Both the position numbers and the translations under genes were made by a program. From Leucobacter massiliensis (GTDB lineage: Bacteria; Actinomycetota; Actinomycetes; Actinomycetales; Microbacteriaceae): DNA of 64,000 bases. The stretch lies in assembly GCF_002982315.1 (NCBI RefSeq), contig NZ_MWZD01000014.1:124001-188000 (forward strand), in the 5' to 3' direction. The notes below the pieces were generated by a model. It saw only the letters and a list, made by a program, of their open reading frames with translations, was not told the origin of the DNA and did not search any database. Position 1 is the first letter of the stretch. Each line of letters opens with the position of its first letter. Positions 28,976 through 39,235 of the stretch are shown here, piece by piece.

Positions 28976-30400
28976 TCAGCCGGCTGCCGGCTCGAAGCGC
29001 CGGCGCAGCGCTTCGACCAGCTGCGGAATGATCTGGTAGACCGTGCCGCAGCTCATCGTCACCATGACGTCGCCCGGACGCGCGATCTCCGCCAGATAGT
29101 CGGCGGCGTCCTGCCAGTCGGGACGGTAGGCCACCCGCCCCTGATCCGCGAAGTCGTCGGCGACGAGCGCCCCCGTGACGCCCTCCACCGGGTCCTCGCG
29201 CGCCCCGTCGACGGCGAGCACCACGGTGTGGTCGGCCCCCGCTTCGAGCACCCGGGCGAACTCACGATGGAACGTCTGCGTGCGGCTGTAGAGATGCGGC
29301 TGGTGAACCGCGATGAGACGCCCCTCCCCCACGACGGCGCGCGCCGAGTCGAGCAGCGCGGCAACCTCCGTGTGGTGGTGCGCGTAGTCGTCGTAGACCC
29401 GCACGCCGCCGACCTCCGCGTGGAACTCGAAGCGCCGCTTGGTGCCTGCGAAGCCGGCGATCGCGGCGAGCGCCGCCGCGGGCTCGATCCCGAGTCCCGT
29501 CAGCACCGCGAGGGCACCCACCGCGTTGACCGCATTGTGCCGCCCATACACGCGCAGCTGAGCGGCGTGGCGCGCACCGTCGATGTCGACCTCGAAACGC
29601 ACGGGGCCCGAGTCGTCGACCGAGACGATGCGCACATCGGCGTCGGGCGCGAAACCGAAGCTGCGGATCGGCGGCAGCTCGCCGCCCTGCTCGCGCAACG
29701 CGCGCAGCACCTCGAGCGCGCCCGGGTCGTCTGCCGAGATCACGAGCAGCTCACGGGCCCCGCGCGCGAACTCGACGAAAGCCGACATGAAGTTCTCGCG
29801 CGAGCCGTAGAAGTCGAGATGCTCCGGGTCCACGTTCGTGATGAGGGCGACAGCGGTGTCATAGAGCAGGAACGACTTGTCGGACTCGTCCGCCTCGATC
29901 ACGAAGAGATCGTCCCCACCCGGGGCCGAGCTCACGCCGATCCCCTCGATGACGCCGCCGTTGACGAATGAGGGATCGGCGCCCGCCCCGAGCAGGCCGG
30001 TGACGATCATTCCCGTCGAGGTCGTCTTGCCGTGCGCACCGGCCACCGCGACCACGCGTTTGCCGCGCGTCAGCCACGCGAGCGCCTGCGAACGGTGCAG
30101 CACCGGCAGCCCCCGGGCGAGGGCGAGCTGGTACTCGGGGTTGTCCTGCCACAGCGCGCCGGTGACGACGAGCGTGTCGGCGTCGCCCACGTTCTCCGCG
30201 GCGTGCCCGATCGCGACGGGGATCCCGATGCCTTCCAGTGCGGCCGTCGAGTAGCTGGCGCTGCGATCCGACCCGGTGACCGCGACGCCGGCCTCGTGCA
30301 TCATGCGCGCGATGCCGCTCATGCCCGAGCCGCCGATGCCGACGAAGTGCACCCGCCCCAGCTCCTCCGGAATCCCCATGTCGAGATCGGGATAGATCAT
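28976..30400 (-). CDS. murC: UDP-N-acetylmuramate-L-alanine ligase
   Basis: 474 residues. It adds the first amino acid of the stem peptide in the cytoplasm. [17 protein letters not shown] (N-terminal Rossmann fold), [11 protein letters not shown] (ATP P-loop, intact), [12 protein letters not shown] (Mg2+ region), and [14 protein letters not shown] are all conserved. In B-type walls, as in many Microbacteriaceae, position 1 can be Gly or Ser; the substrate cannot be told from sequence. GGAGG stands 4 bases before the ATG at 30400. An unexpected MFS gene separates it from murG. Confidence 0.95.
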
Positions 30401-30496: not shown

Positions 30497-31687
30497 TCAG
30501 TCGCGCGCTCGCTCGGCCGCGGGACCCGGCACGAGCGGCACCGCGAGCGCCGGCGTGAGCGCGAGGAGCGCGAGCGCGGCCGGGATGCCCGCAACGCCGA
30601 TCAGCCCGCCGACCACGGGGCCGACCGCCGCCGCGGCGAGGAACTGCCCGGTGTTCTGGATGCCGAGCGCACGCCCCGCCCACGCCGGCCCCGAGAGCTC
30701 GGCCACGGCGGTGAAGGCGAGGCCGTTGTCGGCGACGCTGATGCAGCTCGCCACCACGTACGCGAGCGCGGCCGCGGCGCCCCACTCCGCCCAGCCCAGC
30801 GCGCCGCAGGCGAGCATCGCGAAGACCCCCGCCACCGCCACGAGGCGCAGCGGCCGCAGACGCGACGCAGCCCGGTCGCTCCACACCCCCACGAGAATGC
30901 GCCCGGCCGCGCCCGCGAACTGCGCGACCGCCACCAGGGCGCCCGCCGCGAACGCGCTCCACCCGAATCCCACCGTGAACCACACCAGCCCGAAGGTCGA
31001 GAGCGCGAACTGCGGCACCACGAGCAGCACGGAGGCGGCGTGAATCCGCACGAGGGTGAGCGATCCGCGGTACGGGCTGCCCGCACCGGGAACGCCGCCT
31101 GCCGCACCCGGCCTGGGCGCCCGGTCGGGGTCCCGCACCACCAGTGCGCACACCACGAGGCTGAGCGCGCTCAGCGCTCCGCCGAGCGCGAGCGCCCCCG
31201 GCACCCCGAACGCCTCAGCGAGGGGTGGAACGCCGAGGGCTGCCACCGCCATGCCGAGCGGCTGGCACGTCTGGCGGATGCCCATCGCGAGCCCGCGCCG
31301 CTGCGCCGGGAACCACCCGGTGATCAGCCGGCCGCTCGCGCTGTTCGTGCACGCCGAGACGGCGCCGCTGAGCGCGAGCGCCGCCCCGAGCACCGCCGGC
31401 TCGCGCGCCGACATCGACCCGGCGACGGCCGCGACCGTGAGCGCGAGTCCGACGAGGATCACGCGCCGCTCGCCGAAGCGGTCGGTCGCCGCTCCCCACA
31501 GCACGAGGGTGAGGACGAGACCGAGGTTGGGGGCCCCGGCGAGCATCCCGGCCGCCACGAGGCTCAGCCCCCGTTCTGCGAGCAGGTGCGGGATCAGGAA
31601 GGCGGGCGCGGCGGCGACCACGGTGGTCGAGGCCTGCGCCAGCACCATCGCGGCGAGCATCGCCCAGGGGCGGGGTGAAGGGGTCAT
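30497..31687 (-). CDS. MFS transporter inserted in the dcw cluster
   Basis: 396 residues with about 12 hydrophobic segments. The loop after helix 2 reads GAATDRFGERRVILVG, the major-facilitator motif A. A short cytoplasmic loop (DRAPRPGAAGG) separates the two halves. The subfamily cannot be named: NarK- or CynX-like transporters share the pattern. It sits between murG and murC, a place where no transporter is expected. Gaps of 125 bp to murG and 96 bp to murC differ from the overlaps elsewhere in the cluster, so it may be a late insertion with its own promoter. GGAGA stands 7 bases before the ATG at 31687. Base composition is like that of the neighbours. Confidence 0.87.
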   Translation of the reverse strand: MTPSPRPWAMLAAMVLAQASTTVVAAAPAFLIPHLLAERGLSLVAAGMLAGAPNLGLVLTLVLWGAATDRFGERRVILVGLALTVAAVAGSMSAREPAVLGAALALSGAVSACTNSASGRLITGWFPAQRRGLAMGIRQTCQPLGMAVAALGVPPLAEAFGVPGALALGGALSALSLVVCALVVRDPDRAPRPGAAGGVPGAGSPYRGSLTLVRIHAASVLLVVPQFALSTFGLVWFTVGFGWSAFAAGALVAVAQFAGAAGRILVGVWSDRAASRLRPLRLVAVAGVFAMLACGALGWAEWGAAAALAYVVASCISVADNGLAFTAVAELSGPAWAGRALGIQNTGQFLAAAAVGPVVGGLIGVAGIPAALALLALTPALAVPLVPGPAAERARD

Positions 31688-31812
31688 GCGCGGGTCTCCG
31701 GTCGACGGGATCGTGGACCGGCACGACGACGGGGCCGCGGACGGGGCGCCGGTCGGTTCAGACCCCGTCGCGGCTCCGAAGCAGGAGCGCACAAGACATG
31801 GTGATGACGATC

Positions 31813-32901: not shown

Positions 32902-34118
32902 CGAGTGGTCCTTCCTGCGGATGCGTCGAGCTCCGCGTGATACTTCGCGCCGTCGCGGGCGATCGAGATCACCACGCCGATCGCGCCGAGACAGGCGATG
33001 AGGGCGGTGCCGCCCGCGCTGATCAGCGGCAGCGGCACGCCCAGGACCGGGAACACGCCGATCACCACGCCGATGTTCACGAAGGCCTGCCCGACGATCC
33101 ACACCAGGATGCCGCCGACCACGGCGCGGCCGAAGCGATCCCGCGCCCGCGCGATGACGCGCAGCATCACGACGGTGAGGACGATGAACAGCACCACCAC
33201 GAGCAGCGCGCCGATCAGTCCCAGCTCCTCGCCGATGATCGCGAAGATGTAGTCGTTGTCCGCCGCGGGAAGCCACGACCACTTCGCCTTCGAGCCGCCG
33301 AGACCCACCCCGAACACGCCGCCGCCGGCGAGCGCCCACAGTCCGTGCAACGGCTGCCAGCCGAGGCCGCTGTAGTCCTCATTCCCGCTGGCGTGACCGA
33401 AGAGGCGGTTGAGGCGGTTCTCGCTCGTCACCACGAAGAAGACCACGGCGAGCGCTCCGCCGAGCGCGGTCACCCCGAGCGTCTTCCAGCTGATGCCGCC
33501 GAAGAACATCGCACCGAAGACCATTGCGGCCATGATGAGCACGGTCCCCAGATCGCGGCCCAGCAGCACCGAACCCAGCGCGATGATCGAACCGGGGATG
33601 ACGACCGGGATGAGCTCGTGACGCATCTGGCCGAGCAGCGGCTCCTTGCGCTGGAGCACCGCCCCCACCCAGACCACGAGCGCGAGCTTCAGTGCCTCGG
33701 AGGGCTGGGCTCCGAAACTGCCGATCTGGATCCAGTTCCGGTTGCCGTAGACCTCGATGCCGAGCGGCGTGAAGACGAGGGCCTGCAGCAGCAGGCCGGT
33801 GCCGAGCAGCACCCAGGCCCAGCGCTTCCAGAAGTCCAGCGGCATGGCCGCGGCGATCAGCATGAGCGGGATGCCGATCACCGCGAAGGTGACCTGGCGC
33901 CAGAAGCCGCCGAAGAAGCCCTGGTCGTCGAGGTAGGAAGTGATCGAGGAGGACGAGAGCACCATGATCAGCCCGAAGCCGACGAGCAGCAGTGTGATGG
34001 CGTAGAGCGCGACGACGGTGCGGTCGCTCCCGGTGCGCAGCACGGCTCCCAGGCGGATGCGCGCCTGGCCCGAACCGCGCCCCTGCGACGTCGCCCGCCC
34101 CTCGGACACGCCGCTCAC
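32898..34118 (-). CDS. ftsW: Peptidoglycan polymerase FtsW (SEDS)
   Basis: 406 residues with about ten membrane helices. It polymerises lipid II together with FtsI at the septum. Recognisable: GNRNWIQIGSFGAQPSEALKL, QPLHGLWALAGGGVFGVGLG, and NDYIFAIIGEELGLIGALL with the SEDS-conserved residues; VFPVLGVPLPLISAGGTA near the C-terminus. The start was set at the GTG 34118, which overlaps the murD stop (GTGA); this gives a cytoplasmic N-terminus of about 35 residues. Downstream murG overlaps by four bases. Confidence 0.95.
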   Translation of the reverse strand: MSGVSEGRATSQGRGSGQARIRLGAVLRTGSDRTVVALYAITLLLVGFGLIMVLSSSSITSYLDDQGFFGGFWRQVTFAVIGIPLMLIAAAMPLDFWKRWAWVLLGTGLLLQALVFTPLGIEVYGNRNWIQIGSFGAQPSEALKLALVVWVGAVLQRKEPLLGQMRHELIPVVIPGSIIALGSVLLGRDLGTVLIMAAMVFGAMFFGGISWKTLGVTALGGALAVVFFVVTSENRLNRLFGHASGNEDYSGLGWQPLHGLWALAGGGVFGVGLGGSKAKWSWLPAADNDYIFAIIGEELGLIGALLVVVLFIVLTVVMLRVIARARDRFGRAVVGGILVWIVGQAFVNIGVVIGVFPVLGVPLPLISAGGTALIACLGAIGVVISIARDGAKYHAELDASAGRTTR

Positions 34119-35185
34119 TCCCGCCCGCGGGACGCGTGATGGTACTGCAGGATCGCCTCGGCGATCTCCGCGGGCTCGGCGCCGCGCGCTCGCGCGAGCG
34201 CGCTGGCGGCGAGGAGGTCCTGCACGAAACCGGGCTCCGCGAGGCCGAGCTCGTGCAGCTCGTCGAGCGTGACGAGCTCGTAGGCTTCGCTGCGGCGCTC
34301 CGCGTGGTAGCCGCGGTCGACCAGGATCTCCTCGACGATGCCGAAGCCGCTCGGCGGCGGCGAGTCCAGCCCGAAGCTGATCGCTCGGGCCCCCTCCACC
34401 ACGTCGGCCTCCTCGACCATCCGCTCCGTCTCGGGGTCCGCGCGGTTGTACACGCACGCGATCTGCGTGCGCTCGTACACCCGCGCGGCGGTGGCCCAGC
34501 GGGAGGGGGCGTCCGCGGCGGCAGCGGCAGAGGCGTCGAAATCGAGGCGCACGCTGGCGTAGGGCGAGATCTCGCCGAGTCGCGCGAGCTGCAGCTCGCT
34601 GAGCTCCACGACCAGCGCGTCGTAGCCGTGCGGATCGCGCAGCGGGTCGAGGATCGGCGCACCGCTCCCGCCCGCGGGCGCGACGCGCAGGCCGGCCGCG
34701 GCGAGCATGTGCGCGGTCAGCCGAGCGGCGACCGCGGTGTCGCGGGACCCCGAGACGCAGATCCAGTCCGCGACGCGCGGGGTCTTGTCGCGGAGCCGCC
34801 ACGCGAGCTCCACGTCCCCCCACACGGGCAGTCCGCGCGAGGCGGCCCAGGCGGTGAGCGGATCGTCGGCCGGCACCTCGGGGCCGGCGATCACGAGCTC
34901 GGGCCCGAAGGCCGCGAGCTCGCCGAGGCGCGCCGCGCTGGTCTCCGCCAGCACCCGCTCCGCGCCGATCACGTCGAGCAGGCGCTCGTGGTCGGCGTCG
35001 GCCAGCTCGTGGATCACGCGTACCCGGGCCCCCAGCTCGGCGAGCGTGTCGGCTGCGGCGAAGCCGACGGCCCCGAGGCCGAGCACCGCGATCCGCAGCC
35101 CCGACCAGTCGTGGTGCCAGCTCCCCAGTTCCGCGACGCGCTCGGCCTCCGGCCGCCTCGCCCCTGTCGTCTCCGCCTCGCTCAC
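34115..35185 (-). CDS. murD: Degenerate, truncated MurD homologue (probably not an active ligase)
   Basis: 356 residues; active MurD has about 450-500. It occupies the exact murD slot between mraY and ftsW and keeps a 4-base overlap at both ends. The N-terminal Rossmann fold ([20 protein letters not shown]) and a central domain core ([14 protein letters not shown]) are recognisable. But the ATP P-loop GTNGKTT is replaced by SGSRDTAV (about 145-152), with no lysine. The metal-binding stretch equivalent to DHLDWHG is lost ([11 protein letters not shown]). The GxHN motif is also gone, and the protein ends just where the C-terminal substrate domain should begin. No frameshift is needed to explain this, because the stop overlaps the ftsW start. 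It could be a scaffold for other Mur enzymes or a relic. Confidence 0.85.
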
Positions 35186-36267
35186 TGCGACAGCAACCAT
35201 TCCCCGTAGAAGGCGCCGATCCCGGAGATCACGAAGAGCCCGGCGATGATCCAGAACCGCACCACCACGGTGACCTCGGCCCACCCCTTCAGCTCGAAGT
35301 GGTGGTGGATGGGGCTCATCAGGAAGATCCGCTTGCCCTTCGTGAGCTTGAAGTAGATGCGCTGCACGATCACCGAACCGGTCTCGATGATGAACAGCCC
35401 GCCGATGAGCACCAGCAGCAGCTCCGTGTGGGTGAGGATCGCGAGCGCGGCGATCCCGCCTCCGAGACCCATCGAACCGGTGTCGCCCATGTAGACGTGC
35501 GCGGGGCTCGTGTTCCACCACAGGAATCCCGCCAGCCCGCCGACGAAGGCGGCAGCGATGACGGCGAGATCCATCGGGTCGCGCACCTCGTAGCAGCCGG
35601 CCTCGTTCGCCGTCGCGGCGCAGGACTGAGCCGCCTGCCAGAAGCCGATGATGACGTAGGCGCCGAAGGCGAAGATCGAGGCGCCGCCGGCGAGGCCGTC
35701 GAGGCCGTCGGTCACGTTGACGGCGTTCGTGGTGGCGGTGACGATCACCATCACCCACAGCACGAACAGGCCAACGCCGAGGATGGGGCCCAGCGCCATG
35801 AAGTCGAACGGCAGATCACGGAAGACGGAGATGTGCGTCGAGGCCGGGGTCAGGCCCTGCTCGTTCGCGAACTGCAGCGCGAGCAGCGCGAACACCACGG
35901 CGATGAGGATCTGCCCCGCGATCTTCGCCCAGCCGCCGAGCCCGAGCGACTGCTGCTTGCGGGTCTTCATGAAGTCGTCGATGAAGCCTACGGCGCCGGC
36001 GCCGACCGCCATGAGGATCACGAGCAGCGCGGAGGGCGACGGCGTCTCCCCCATGATCAGCTTGCCGATGAAGTACGCGATCACCGACCCGGAAATGAAG
36101 ATGAGCCCGCCCATGGTGGGGGTGCCGCGCTTCGCGTAGTGCGACTGCGGGCCGTCCTCGCGAATGAACTGCCCCCAGTGCAGCTTGCGGAAGCCCCGCA
36201 CGAAGAGCGGCGTGAGCAGCAGTGAGTACAGCAGCGAGACGCCGCCGGCGATGAGCAGCGCGATCAT
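35182..36267 (-). CDS. mraY: Phospho-MurNAc-pentapeptide translocase
   Basis: 361 residues with about ten membrane helices. It attaches phospho-MurNAc-pentapeptide to undecaprenyl phosphate, giving lipid [22 protein letters not shown] (catalytic Asp pair), [34 protein letters not shown], and [12 protein letters not shown] are the family motifs. Its ATG overlaps the murF stop (ATGA), and its own stop overlaps the murD start (GTGA). Confidence 0.97.
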
Positions 36268-37673
36268 GCGTAGGCCTCCCCGAGACGGTCGCCGAGGCGC
36301 TGCAGTCCGGCCGCGTTCGACGACTTCACGAGCACCGTGTCGTGGGGCCGCAGGGTGCGCAGCAGATAGTCGTGCGCCTCGTCCTGCGTCTCGAAGAACA
36401 CGCTCTCCCCGTCCCACGAGCCCTCATTGATGGCGCTGATGTGCAGCTGGCGCGCCTCGCGGCCGACGACGACGAGCTCCGAGATGCGCAGGCGCACCGC
36501 TTGCAGGCCGACGCGGATGTGCTCCTCGATGGAGTATTCGCCGAGCTCGCTCATCGCCCCCAGCACCGCGACCGAGCGCCCCTCCGGCCTGCGGATCTGC
36601 GCGAGGGTGCGCAGCGCCGCGCTCATCGAGTCGGGGCTCGCGTTGTAGGCGTCGTTGATGATGGTCACCCCGTCCCGGCCGCCGAGCACCTCCATGCGCC
36701 CGGGGGCGGCGAGCGTCGCGCCCTCCAGTTCGGCGACGATGTCCGCGAGCGGGAGGCCGAGCTCGACGCCGATCGCGGCGGCGGCGAGGGCGTTCATGAC
36801 GTGGTGCTCGCCCAGCACGCGGAAGTGCACCGGCAGGGACTCCCCCGCTGCGTGGATCGTGAAGCGGGTGCCGTCTGCGGAGGGCTCCACCTCGGTAGCC
36901 CGCACCTCGGCGTCGCGGTGCAGCCCGAACCAGCGCACCCGCGCACGGGTCAGCTCCGCCATCTTCGCCACGCGCGGGTCGTCGCGATTGAGCACGGCGA
37001 CGGCCGTCTCCGGGAGTTCGCGCACCATCTCGCTCTTCGCGCGGAAGGTCGCCTCGATGCCGCCGAACTCACCGGCGTGGGCGAGACCCACCGAGAGCAC
37101 CACCCCGATGTGCGGGGGCGCCATGCGGGTGAGGCGGGCGATCTCGCCCTCTGCGCTCGCGCCCATCTCGGCGACGAGGGTGCGGGTGCGCTCGTCGACG
37201 CGGAGCATCGTGAGCGGGCCGCCCACCTCGTTGTTGAACGACTTCGCCGAGGCCACCACGGGCCCGAGCCGCGCGGCCATCGTCGCGACGAGGTTCTTCG
37301 TGGTGGTCTTGCCGTTGGAGCCGGTGATGCCGACGACGGTGAGCCCACCGCGCTCGCGCACCCGGCGTACGACCTCGGTCGCCAGCGCCCCGAGAGCCTC
37401 CGTGGTCTCCGCGACGATGATCTGCGGCACGCGGTCGTCCACCTCGCGCTCGGCGACGATCAGCGCCGCTCCGGCCTCGACGGCCTTCCCGGCGAAGCGG
37501 TGCCCATCGGTCTCCTCGCCGCGGCGGGCGAAGAAGATCTGCCCGGGCTGCAGCTCGCGGGAGTCGGTCTGCGACTCGCCGCGCACCACGGTCTCCGGGC
37601 CCGCCCCGCTTCCGCCGGGGACCAGCCGCCCCTGCACGGCATGGGCGATCTCGGCCAGCGTCAGTTCAATCAC
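36264..37673 (-). CDS. murF: UDP-MurNAc-tripeptide-D-Ala-D-Ala ligase
   Basis: 469 residues. It adds D-Ala-D-Ala to the stem. N-terminal domain ([25 protein letters not shown]), intact P-loop [46 protein letters not shown]. The start is a GTG at 37673 overlapping the murE stop (GTGA). In contrast to the neighbouring murD, every catalytic motif is present. Confidence 0.95.
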
Positions 37674-39235
37674 GGAAGCAATCCTGCCTCGCGGAGCGCT
37701 CCGCGTACCTCTTCACGCGCCGAGTAGGGAAGGATCCGCCCGGCGATCTCCTGATAGTCCTCGTGTCCGGGACCGGCATACAGGATAACGTCACCCGGCT
37801 GCGCGATCGAAACCGCGAGCCGGACGGCGGTGCGCGGATCCCCCTCCTCGAACACCCTCGCGTGGTTGGCCGAGCGCACGCCGGCGATGAGCTGCGCGCG
37901 GATCGCCTCGGGCGGCTCCGAGCGCGGATGGTAGTCGCAGACGATGACGGCGTCCGATCCGGCGCCCGCGATCCGGCCCATCTCCTCGCGTTTGGTGGTG
38001 TCGCGGTCGCCGTCCGCGCCGAAGAGGAAGATGATGCGGCCGGGAGCGACCTCCGCGAGCGCGTCGAGCATCGCCGCGAAGGCGCCCGGCGTGTGACCGT
38101 AGTCGACGAAGAAGCGGGGTCCCGCCTCGAGCGGCGTCTCCGGGTTCATGCACTCCAGTCGTCCGGGGATGTAGACCGGGATGCGCCCCCGGTCGAGCCC
38201 CGCCGCGACCCGCTCGAGGGGGATCCCCGCCTCGTGGAGCATGATGAGCGCGAGCGCGGCGTTCTCGGCCATGAAGCGCCCGAAGACCGGCACGCTGCCG
38301 CGGAAGTGCGCGCCCTCGGGGCCCTGCAGCACGAAGGAGACGCCGTCGAGGCTCTGCCGGGTGACCGCCAGATGCCACTCGGCGTCCTGCCCGTACTCGG
38401 TGGCGAGGCGCGTCACCGGGATGCGCGACTCACGGGCGACGCGCTGCCCCGCGGGCGCATCGACCACGACCACGCCTCGCTCCGCGTGCTCGGGGGCGAA
38501 GAGCGCGAGCTTCGCGGCGAAATAGCTCTCCATGTCCCCGAAGTCGTCGAGGTGGTCCTGGGAGAAGTTGTTGAAGGCCACGACGTCGAAGCGCACGCCG
38601 TCGATGCGGTGCCGCTCGACGGCGTGCGCCGACACCTCGAGCGCGACCGCGTCGACGCCCTTCTCGCTCATGCGTGCGAGCAGCGCGTGCAGTTCCGTGG
38701 CCTCGGGGCTGGTGAGGTTCGAGACGATGACTTCCTCGCCGATCCGCCGCTCCGCGGTGGAGCTGAGCCCGGGGGTCATGCCGGCCGCGCGGAGGAGCTC
38801 CGCGAGCAGGTAGACGACGCTGGTCTTGCCGTTGGTGCCGGTGATCCCGAACACGCGCGCGGGCAGCTCGGCGGTGCCGTACACGGCCGCGGCGAGCTCG
38901 CCGAGCGATTCTCGGGGCGGAACGGCCGACACGAAGACCGGGATCCCGAGTCCCTGCGTGGCCGTCACTTCGAGGCCGGCCGCATCGGTGAGCACCGCGA
39001 CGGCTCCGCTGCGCTCGGCCTGAGCGGCGAACTCGGCTCCGTGCCGGCGCGCGCCGGGCAGGCCGACGTAGAGGTCGCCCTCGCGCACGTCGCGGGAGTC
39101 GATGGTCACGCCGAAGGCCGCGGCGTCACCCGCGTGCCCTGATCCCGTCTCCCAGCCGAACTCCCGGCGCAGCGCCTCGAGCGGGCGCGGCGCGGGATGC
39201 TGCGGACGAATGCTCAGCGCGTCTCCGGTGCTCAA
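37670..39235 (-). CDS. murE: UDP-MurNAc-dipeptide-diamino acid ligase MurE, atypical specificity motif
   Basis: 521 residues. It adds the third residue of the stem peptide. P-loop GITGTNGKTSVVYLL and Mg2+ site NFSQDHLDDFGD are intact. The specificity motif, usually DNPR for meso-DAP ligases, reads DYHPRSEPP here: Arg is kept, but Asn is replaced by His and Asp is shifted. The third residue may therefore be another diamino acid; Leucobacter walls are known to contain 2,4-diaminobutyrate. TTG start at 39235 with AGGAGG 9 bases upstream. A 4-base overlap links it to murF. Confidence 0.92.
   Translation of the reverse strand: MSTGDALSIRPQHPAPRPLEALRREFGWETGSGHAGDAAAFGVTIDSRDVREGDLYVGLPGARRHGAEFAAQAERSGAVAVLTDAAGLEVTATQGLGIPVFVSAVPPRESLGELAAAVYGTAELPARVFGITGTNGKTSVVYLLAELLRAAGMTPGLSSTAERRIGEEVIVSNLTSPEATELHALLARMSEKGVDAVALEVSAHAVERHRIDGVRFDVVAFNNFSQDHLDDFGDMESYFAAKLALFAPEHAERGVVVVDAPAGQRVARESRIPVTRLATEYGQDAEWHLAVTRQSLDGVSFVLQGPEGAHFRGSVPVFGRFMAENAALALIMLHEAGIPLERVAAGLDRGRIPVYIPGRLECMNPETPLEAGPRFFVDYGHTPGAFAAMLDALAEVAPGRIIFLFGADGDRDTTKREEMGRIAGAGSDAVIVCDYHPRSEPPEAIRAQLIAGVRSANHARVFEEGDPRTAVRLAVSIAQPGDVILYAGPGHEDYQEIAGRILPYSAREEVRGALREAGLLP

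Follow-up and report, generated by a model that had tools for sequence, protein, structure and literature searches.

A shortened MurD homologue, apparently stripped of its ligase sites and probably kept as a pseudoenzyme, in Leucobacter massiliensis and other MurL-bearing Microbacteriaceae

The described systems closest to the locus reported here are the MurD ligase (TIGR01087) and the MurD2-MurL pairs of Xanthomonas oryzae, Micromonospora and Salinispora. PMC8788868 demonstrates L-Glu ligation and epimerisation by such pairs in other species, and names four glutamate-site positions at which X. oryzae MurD2, with E, R, P and F, departs from E. coli MurD; these residues, the adjacency of the two genes and the failure to find MurI are shared by the locus described below. 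A precedent by analogy for non-catalytic function is offered by contacts of Mur ligases with division proteins and MurG. PMC3605390 describes an M-PFC network in M. tuberculosis, where Mur ligases bind FtsZ, FtsW, FtsQ, Wag31 and a SepF orthologue and MurD binds MurI, and PMC6420597, on MurG as scaffold, cites the binding of T. maritima MurD to MurG and MreB.

We analysed 64,000 nucleotides of Leucobacter massiliensis (NZ_MWZD01000014.1, positions 124,001 to 188,000; hereafter the window). The gene in its murD slot resembles MurD ligase in lying between mraY and ftsW and in the sequence of its N-terminal and central domains; it differs in that the C-terminal domain is absent and the P-loop and metal site appear dead, the profile match (E 3.2e-26) scoring 92 bits where the cut-off is 212. 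Compared with the known MurD2-MurL systems, the host belongs to the Microbacteriaceae and retains the dead MurD, whereas the Salinispora and Phytohabitans genomes read here are without a murD in the cluster. The interacting Mur ligases of the precedents are active, whereas in Leucobacter a putative role would be separated from catalysis. The MurD2-MurL route itself is known; what looks new is its occurrence among Microbacteriaceae, together with the retention of a pseudo-MurD. No report of a retained dead MurD was found by title or opening of the abstract in the open-access literature, and the words "truncated MurD" occur once in PMC12208494.

The short murD gene and the glutamate route of L. 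massiliensis

The short murD comprises 356 open codons from a GTG start (Table 1). Its residues 31-350 align to TIGR01087 positions 1-303 of 441, the final third of the profile being missing, and the D-Glu-binding C-terminal domain (E. coli 300-437) is absent; the end coincides with the domain hinge, as placed by aligning a live Leucobacter MurD to the E. coli MurD chain. This bears out the truncation recorded in a first-pass annotation of the window, as well as its claim that SGSRDTAV replaces the P-loop, since GTNGKTTT is kept in 51 of 51 long MurDs with intact motifs (mostly nearest matches to the window protein and not a random set). The window protein does not fit GxxGKT/S, by which the ATP-binding P-loop of MurD is defined (PMC4816537). 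In the same alignment, ASAAAAA- stands where live MurD has DDHLDWHG, and the carbamoylated-lysine region (E. coli K198) has gone from AKAKVY to TAARVY. The annotated loss of HLDWHG thus stands; that of GxHN stands only for H319, the textbook form being already altered in most live Leucobacter MurDs, which show P-H-x-V-x-N/D. Judged from its sequence, the ORF is a MurD homologue in which the ATP, metal and glutamate sites are lost. The neighbouring murC, murE and murF were rightly described as intact, and the overlaps at both ends of murD were confirmed.

Table 1 Features of the dcw region and of the MurD2-MurL pair. Positions are those of the window unless an assembly contig is named.
Feature	Position	Strand	Basis
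murC, intact	28976..30400	-	TIGR01082, 404 bits, above cut-off
ftsW	32907..34118	-	ORF
GTGA overlap, murD stop / ftsW start	34115..34118	-	sequence
Short candidate pseudo-MurD, 356 aa, N-terminal and central domains only	34115..35185	-	ORF, TIGR01087 match, alignment
Retained segment, residues 240-304 (65 residues), central domain, strongest constraint	34274..34468	-	regional omega
Metal/substrate motif relic, residues 218-224 (DHLDWHG region in live MurD)	34514..34534	-	alignment
P-loop relic, residues 146-152, GSRDTAV for GTNGKTT	34730..34750	-	alignment
GTGA overlap, mraY stop / murD start	35182..35185	-	sequence
mraY	35182..36267	-	ORF
murF, intact	36264..37673	-	TIGR01143, 393 bits, above cut-off
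murE, intact	37670..39235	-	TIGR01085, 382 bits, above cut-off
MurD2, 448 aa, motifs intact	G000 C6:67622-68968		TIGR01087, 273 bits
MurL epimerase, overlaps MurD2	about C6:68958-70406 (L007:6959-8413(-))		NF041275, 336 bits, E 2.5e-100

The window's own assembly (G000; 3.14 Mb, 99% complete) holds six Mur_ligase_M proteins, namely MurF, MurE, MurC, MurD2, MurT and FolC, and no second full canonical MurD was seen among these six matches. The genome search for a second MurD or a MurD2/MurL pair proposed by the first-pass annotation returned an adjacent MurD2-MurL pair (G000:C6:67622-70406), about 88 kb from the short murD on the same contig. By alignment, this MurD2 has E, R, P and F at E. coli D182, K348, A414 and L416, and its motifs read GTKGKSTT, PEHLPWHG, GGAERDLP and SPGAPSFDEF. 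The MurL, like all seven matches of the genus, scores below the NF041275 cut-off of 700, the model being named for Xanthomonadales. MurI (TIGR00067) gave no match in G000 at E 1e-3, and no D-amino-acid aminotransferase (TIGR01121) came above cut-off in 54 Leucobacter genomes (best 38 bits vs 277). The cell wall of L. massiliensis is very likely built via this substitute pair, by which Glu would be incorporated, in line with the earlier suggestion that another enzyme of the MurD2/MurL type adds Glu; the adjacency of the pair, its glutamate-site residues and the failure to find MurI all point to this route. As a separate observation, a MurT-like gene (L009:4041-6190(-); NF045635, 166 bits, below the cut-off of 800) is followed by a frame that looks GatD-like by eye, so the D-Glu of lipid II may be amidated.

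Distribution and origin of the short forms

The 54 Leucobacter genomes were searched for MurL, MurI (E 1e-3) and MurD. MurL was present in seven, none of which had a MurI match at that threshold. Among the 47 without MurL, 46 gave a MurI match (42 over cut-off; G279 none) and 43 a MurD whose match spans virtually the full profile; in the remaining four, MurD was cut by contig ends (G287, G279), frame-shifted (G263) or not found (G286). Five of the seven MurL-bearing Leucobacter have a short MurD (G000, G253, G278, G294, and G280 with an early TGA), and two (G273, G288) have a full-length MurD in which DDSKATN has become DDAAATN and the lysine of GGLLKG is gone. The short MurDs of G253 (L. celer), G278 (sp. 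wl10) and G294 have the same end as that of the window and no C-terminal domain. The P-loop differs in each of these four proteins: GARGKTTT in G253 and GDRGKTTT in G278 still fit GxxGKT, and those of G294 and the window do not. The metal region and the lysine are gone in all four.

Some further features of these clusters may be recorded. A Major Facilitator Superfamily gene (PF07690, window 30497-31690(-)) lies between murG and murC; at its place L. celer has a different sequence (L084, about 9.0-10.5 kb), and G278 and G294 have just a short gap. The mraY of G000 and G278 groups apart from that of G253 and G294, unlike the other dcw genes, and mraY recombination in these Leucobacter is possible. 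In G263 (L089), a single-contig, MurI-bearing genome, murD and murG are both frame-shifted, which probably reflects assembly errors.

Among 299 sampled Microbacteriaceae (MurI threshold E 1e-20), MurL occurred in 20, belonging to 9 of 85 sampled genera. A MurI match was absent from all 20 and present in 274 of the 279 others; no genome of the 299 had both, an exclusion with Fisher p 8e-27, uncorrected for kinship. Five of the 25 genomes counted as lacking MurI were derived by subtraction. In G015, G062, G176, G211 and G366 no MurL and no MurI passed the thresholds applied, through genome incompleteness or another D-Glu source. The dcw MurD of the 20 MurL-bearing genomes was short in 18 (including G195, where it is split between two frames) and full-length without the D-Glu lysine in two (G042, G184). 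In the MurL-free genomes the best MurD match was E 4.3e-100 or better in 272 of 279, scoring as full-length, whole-profile coverage having been seen in the best-scoring rows and the rest being judged by score; the other seven comprise G081, G094, G144, G146, G156 and G219 (78-88% complete) and G227, with MurD in two pieces. Together with six other Leucobacter and four named Microbacterium, 30 MurL-bearing Microbacteriaceae were read, and their dcw MurD was short in 26, full-length with the D-Glu lysine lost in four and intact in none. The alignment across related Microbacteriaceae that had been proposed as a check thus finds the loss recurring.

Outside the family, five short forms came from Pimelobacter, Nocardioides bruguierae, an Aeromicrobium MAG, Arachnia and a Propionibacteriaceae MAG. 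An intact MurD accompanies MurL in three Nocardioides and one Bifidobacteriaceae MAG, and no dcw MurD was seen in the MurL-bearing Bifidobacteriaceae MAG G307. For seven Micromonosporaceae and two mycobacterial genomes, the match ranking behind MurD2 had at most 112 bits. Nothing MurD-like was seen in the mraY-ftsW interval of the three MurL-bearing clusters read (Salinispora, Phytohabitans and Mycolicibacterium canariasense), so the role of the short form would be dispensable or replaceable there. MurL relatives (L095-L109, L137, L161) were met in Nocardioides, Microbacterium, Bifidobacteriaceae MAGs, Arachnia, Canibacter and Mycolicibacterium; none of these, nor the Microbacteriaceae as a family, appears in the list of the 2021 review (PMC8788868).

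TIGR01087 matches all 27 short forms scanned. GxxGKT/S still fits in eight of 30 and not in 22, so not every short form has lost ATP binding. The four full-length MurDs of MurL-bearing genomes have lost the D-Glu lysine, among other changes, and keep GxxGKT/S; from this gradation, decay seems to have run from the D-Glu site to the C-terminal domain and then the P-loop.

A tree built from the N-terminal and central columns of 86 MurDs places the 30 short forms in nine groups among long MurDs, and about nine separate truncations would be needed. A single ancient short family was rejected (one clade of the 30, AU p 7e-46), a test that long branches may bias. Given the long branches of the short forms, individual placements are uncertain, such as that of Canibacter with G280, and some short lineages may be wrongly joined or split. 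In a tree of five other dcw genes, the four Leucobacter genomes with the shared short form group together (bootstrap 96), apart from G280 and from G273/G288; MraY and FtsW alone, used as species tree, give a conflicting picture. The MurL proteins of Microbacteriaceae split into two or more deep groups, so truncation would have followed different MurL lineages. A pairs test of MurL against shortness on well-supported branches gave five pairs and was not significant (median p 0.25). G195 was left out of alignment and trees, as were the copies L227 (of L226), L052 (of G273) and L054 (of G288); G280, G241 (L234) and G162 (L239) were left out of alignments A3/A4 and kept in the trees.

Selection on the short forms

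The dN/dS estimate that the first-pass annotation had called for was obtained by codon maximum likelihood (GY94, F3x4), saturated fits with branch lengths above 20 being excluded. The four Leucobacter short forms (G000, G253, G278, G294) gave an omega of 0.067 (2dlnL of 559 vs omega=1), and simulation returned 0.90-1.17, 0.27-0.32 and 0.054-0.083 for true values of 1, 0.3 and 0.067 (six sets each). IQ-TREE, under an MG model holding kappa at 1, put these short forms at 0.115. For the same genomes, six neighbouring dcw genes range from 0.030 to 0.063 (MurE 0.063), MurD2 stands at 0.050 and MurL at 0.078; the live MurD of four other Leucobacter stands at 0.025.

The constraint is unevenly distributed. 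In the Leucobacter short forms, residues 240-304, a segment picked partly for its conservation in short forms, give omega 0.011 and 90% identity, the N-domain 0.077 and the remaining positions 0.065. The catalytic motifs, at 34% mean identity, give 0.49, which over 17 codons is not distinguishable from 1. The corresponding values in live Leucobacter MurD are 0.001 for the catalytic motifs, 0.018 for the segment and 0.029 elsewhere. The Leucobacter short MurDs are under purifying selection with their catalytic positions drifting near-neutrally; the segment is not relaxed at all, and outside it constraint is relaxed 2- to 3-fold. A preliminary list of the former active site, drawn from short-form divergence (20 codons, omega 1.76), was discarded as circular and replaced by the 17 codons known from catalysis. 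Four Microbacterium short forms give 0.011 for the segment, 0.055 elsewhere and 0.060 for the catalytic motifs, which are not neutral there, all four still matching GxxGKT/S; in the G080/G241 short forms the segment stands at 0.035 and the other positions at 0.095.

Across 27 short forms A260, V262, G265, R267, A268, P276, G282, V284, D290, R291, R297, A301 and E303 are invariant. Residues kept in at least 95% of 51 live MurDs and in at most 50% of 18 short ones are mostly those of the active site, namely the P-loop, N173, E194/S197, the HLDWH region, K233 and H319; the same list also holds G103, A249 and the last residues.

Possible role of the retained protein

As in a pseudoenzyme, the catalytic residues of the short MurD are lost and the rest is under purifying selection. 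We consider it probable that the protein is retained for a catalysis-independent role, most likely docking onto a further member of the cytoplasmic Mur/division complex. Canonical MurD catalysis would no longer be needed, the D-Glu-binding domain would have been deleted at the domain hinge, and the ATP and metal sites would have drifted. Segment 240-304 is proposed as the docking surface; docking is favoured because the segment is non-catalytic, common to the live MurDs of the actinomycetes studied and shorter in E. coli MurD.

The alternative that the protein has no function, its frame being kept open during slow decay by translational coupling to mraY and ftsW, agrees with the GTGA overlaps, with the complete loss of murD from the three MurL-bearing genomes outside Microbacteriaceae and with the broken copies in G280 and G195. 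Coupling, however, needs an open frame and not a protein sequence, and would predict neither the omega of the whole protein nor that of the segment; by a crude estimate, moreover, FtsW is expected to start 60 to 241 nt beyond the end of murD in 22 of 30 short forms, and the short form has been maintained through deep divergence, with identities of 37-68% inside genus g30. The regional pattern of constraint is not expected from coupling alone, which was rejected as the sole reason, and the explanation is on the whole unlikely. Of similarly low probability is a substrate-binding or regulatory subunit, one of the two roles offered by the first-pass annotation, that would bind UDP-MurNAc-L-Ala or another nucleotide and hand it to MurD2 or sense its level. 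The N-terminal Rossmann-like domain is kept, with V34, G36, D46 and G52 invariant in 18 representatives, and PF21799 (MurD-like_N) matches 18 of the 27 scanned; but the SPG loop is intact in just 12 of 30 and lost in 18, the N of GNIG is kept in two and lost in 28, and the N-domain is less constrained than the segment. The SPG loop and N138 of MurD take part in binding the substrate. Because of these losses the scaffold, the other role then offered, would fit better.

Heteromer formation of the short MurD with MurD2 or MurL, in support of the activity of these enzymes, would explain why every short form found sits in a MurL-bearing genome. Against this, the segment is about equally constrained in MurL-free Leucobacter, so it did not arise for MurD2/MurL, and PMC8788868 reports the Micromonospora and Salinispora pairs to work in vitro; we regard the pairing as quite improbable. 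A sequencing or assembly artefact, of which the G263 frameshifts may be an example, otherwise has in its favour the oddity alone. In four Leucobacter species the short form stops at one and the same place although its P-loop differs, and this architecture recurs in other genera, so that a frameshift or assembly error was rejected, in agreement with the earlier reading of the overlaps, and its probability is negligible.

Returning to the docking pseudoenzyme, a wider proposition, to which we give an even chance, is that actinomycete MurD has an old catalysis-independent second function in a segment of about 65 residues, to which MurD2-MurL lineages stripped the ligase in about nine cuts at the same hinge. 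The short MurDs would, if this is true, be natural separation-of-function mutants. It has long been asked whether Mur ligases play a structural part in the complexes for wall building and division; the question is hard to test, since cells need MurD for its catalysis, and a catalysis-free MurD could be deleted or mutated leaving precursor synthesis untouched. Overall, the MurD2-MurL route is extended to the Microbacteriaceae genera counted above, with a warning that occupancy of the murD slot need not mean a MurD ligase in the genome; the finding is also relevant to the choice of MurD or MurI as a drug target.
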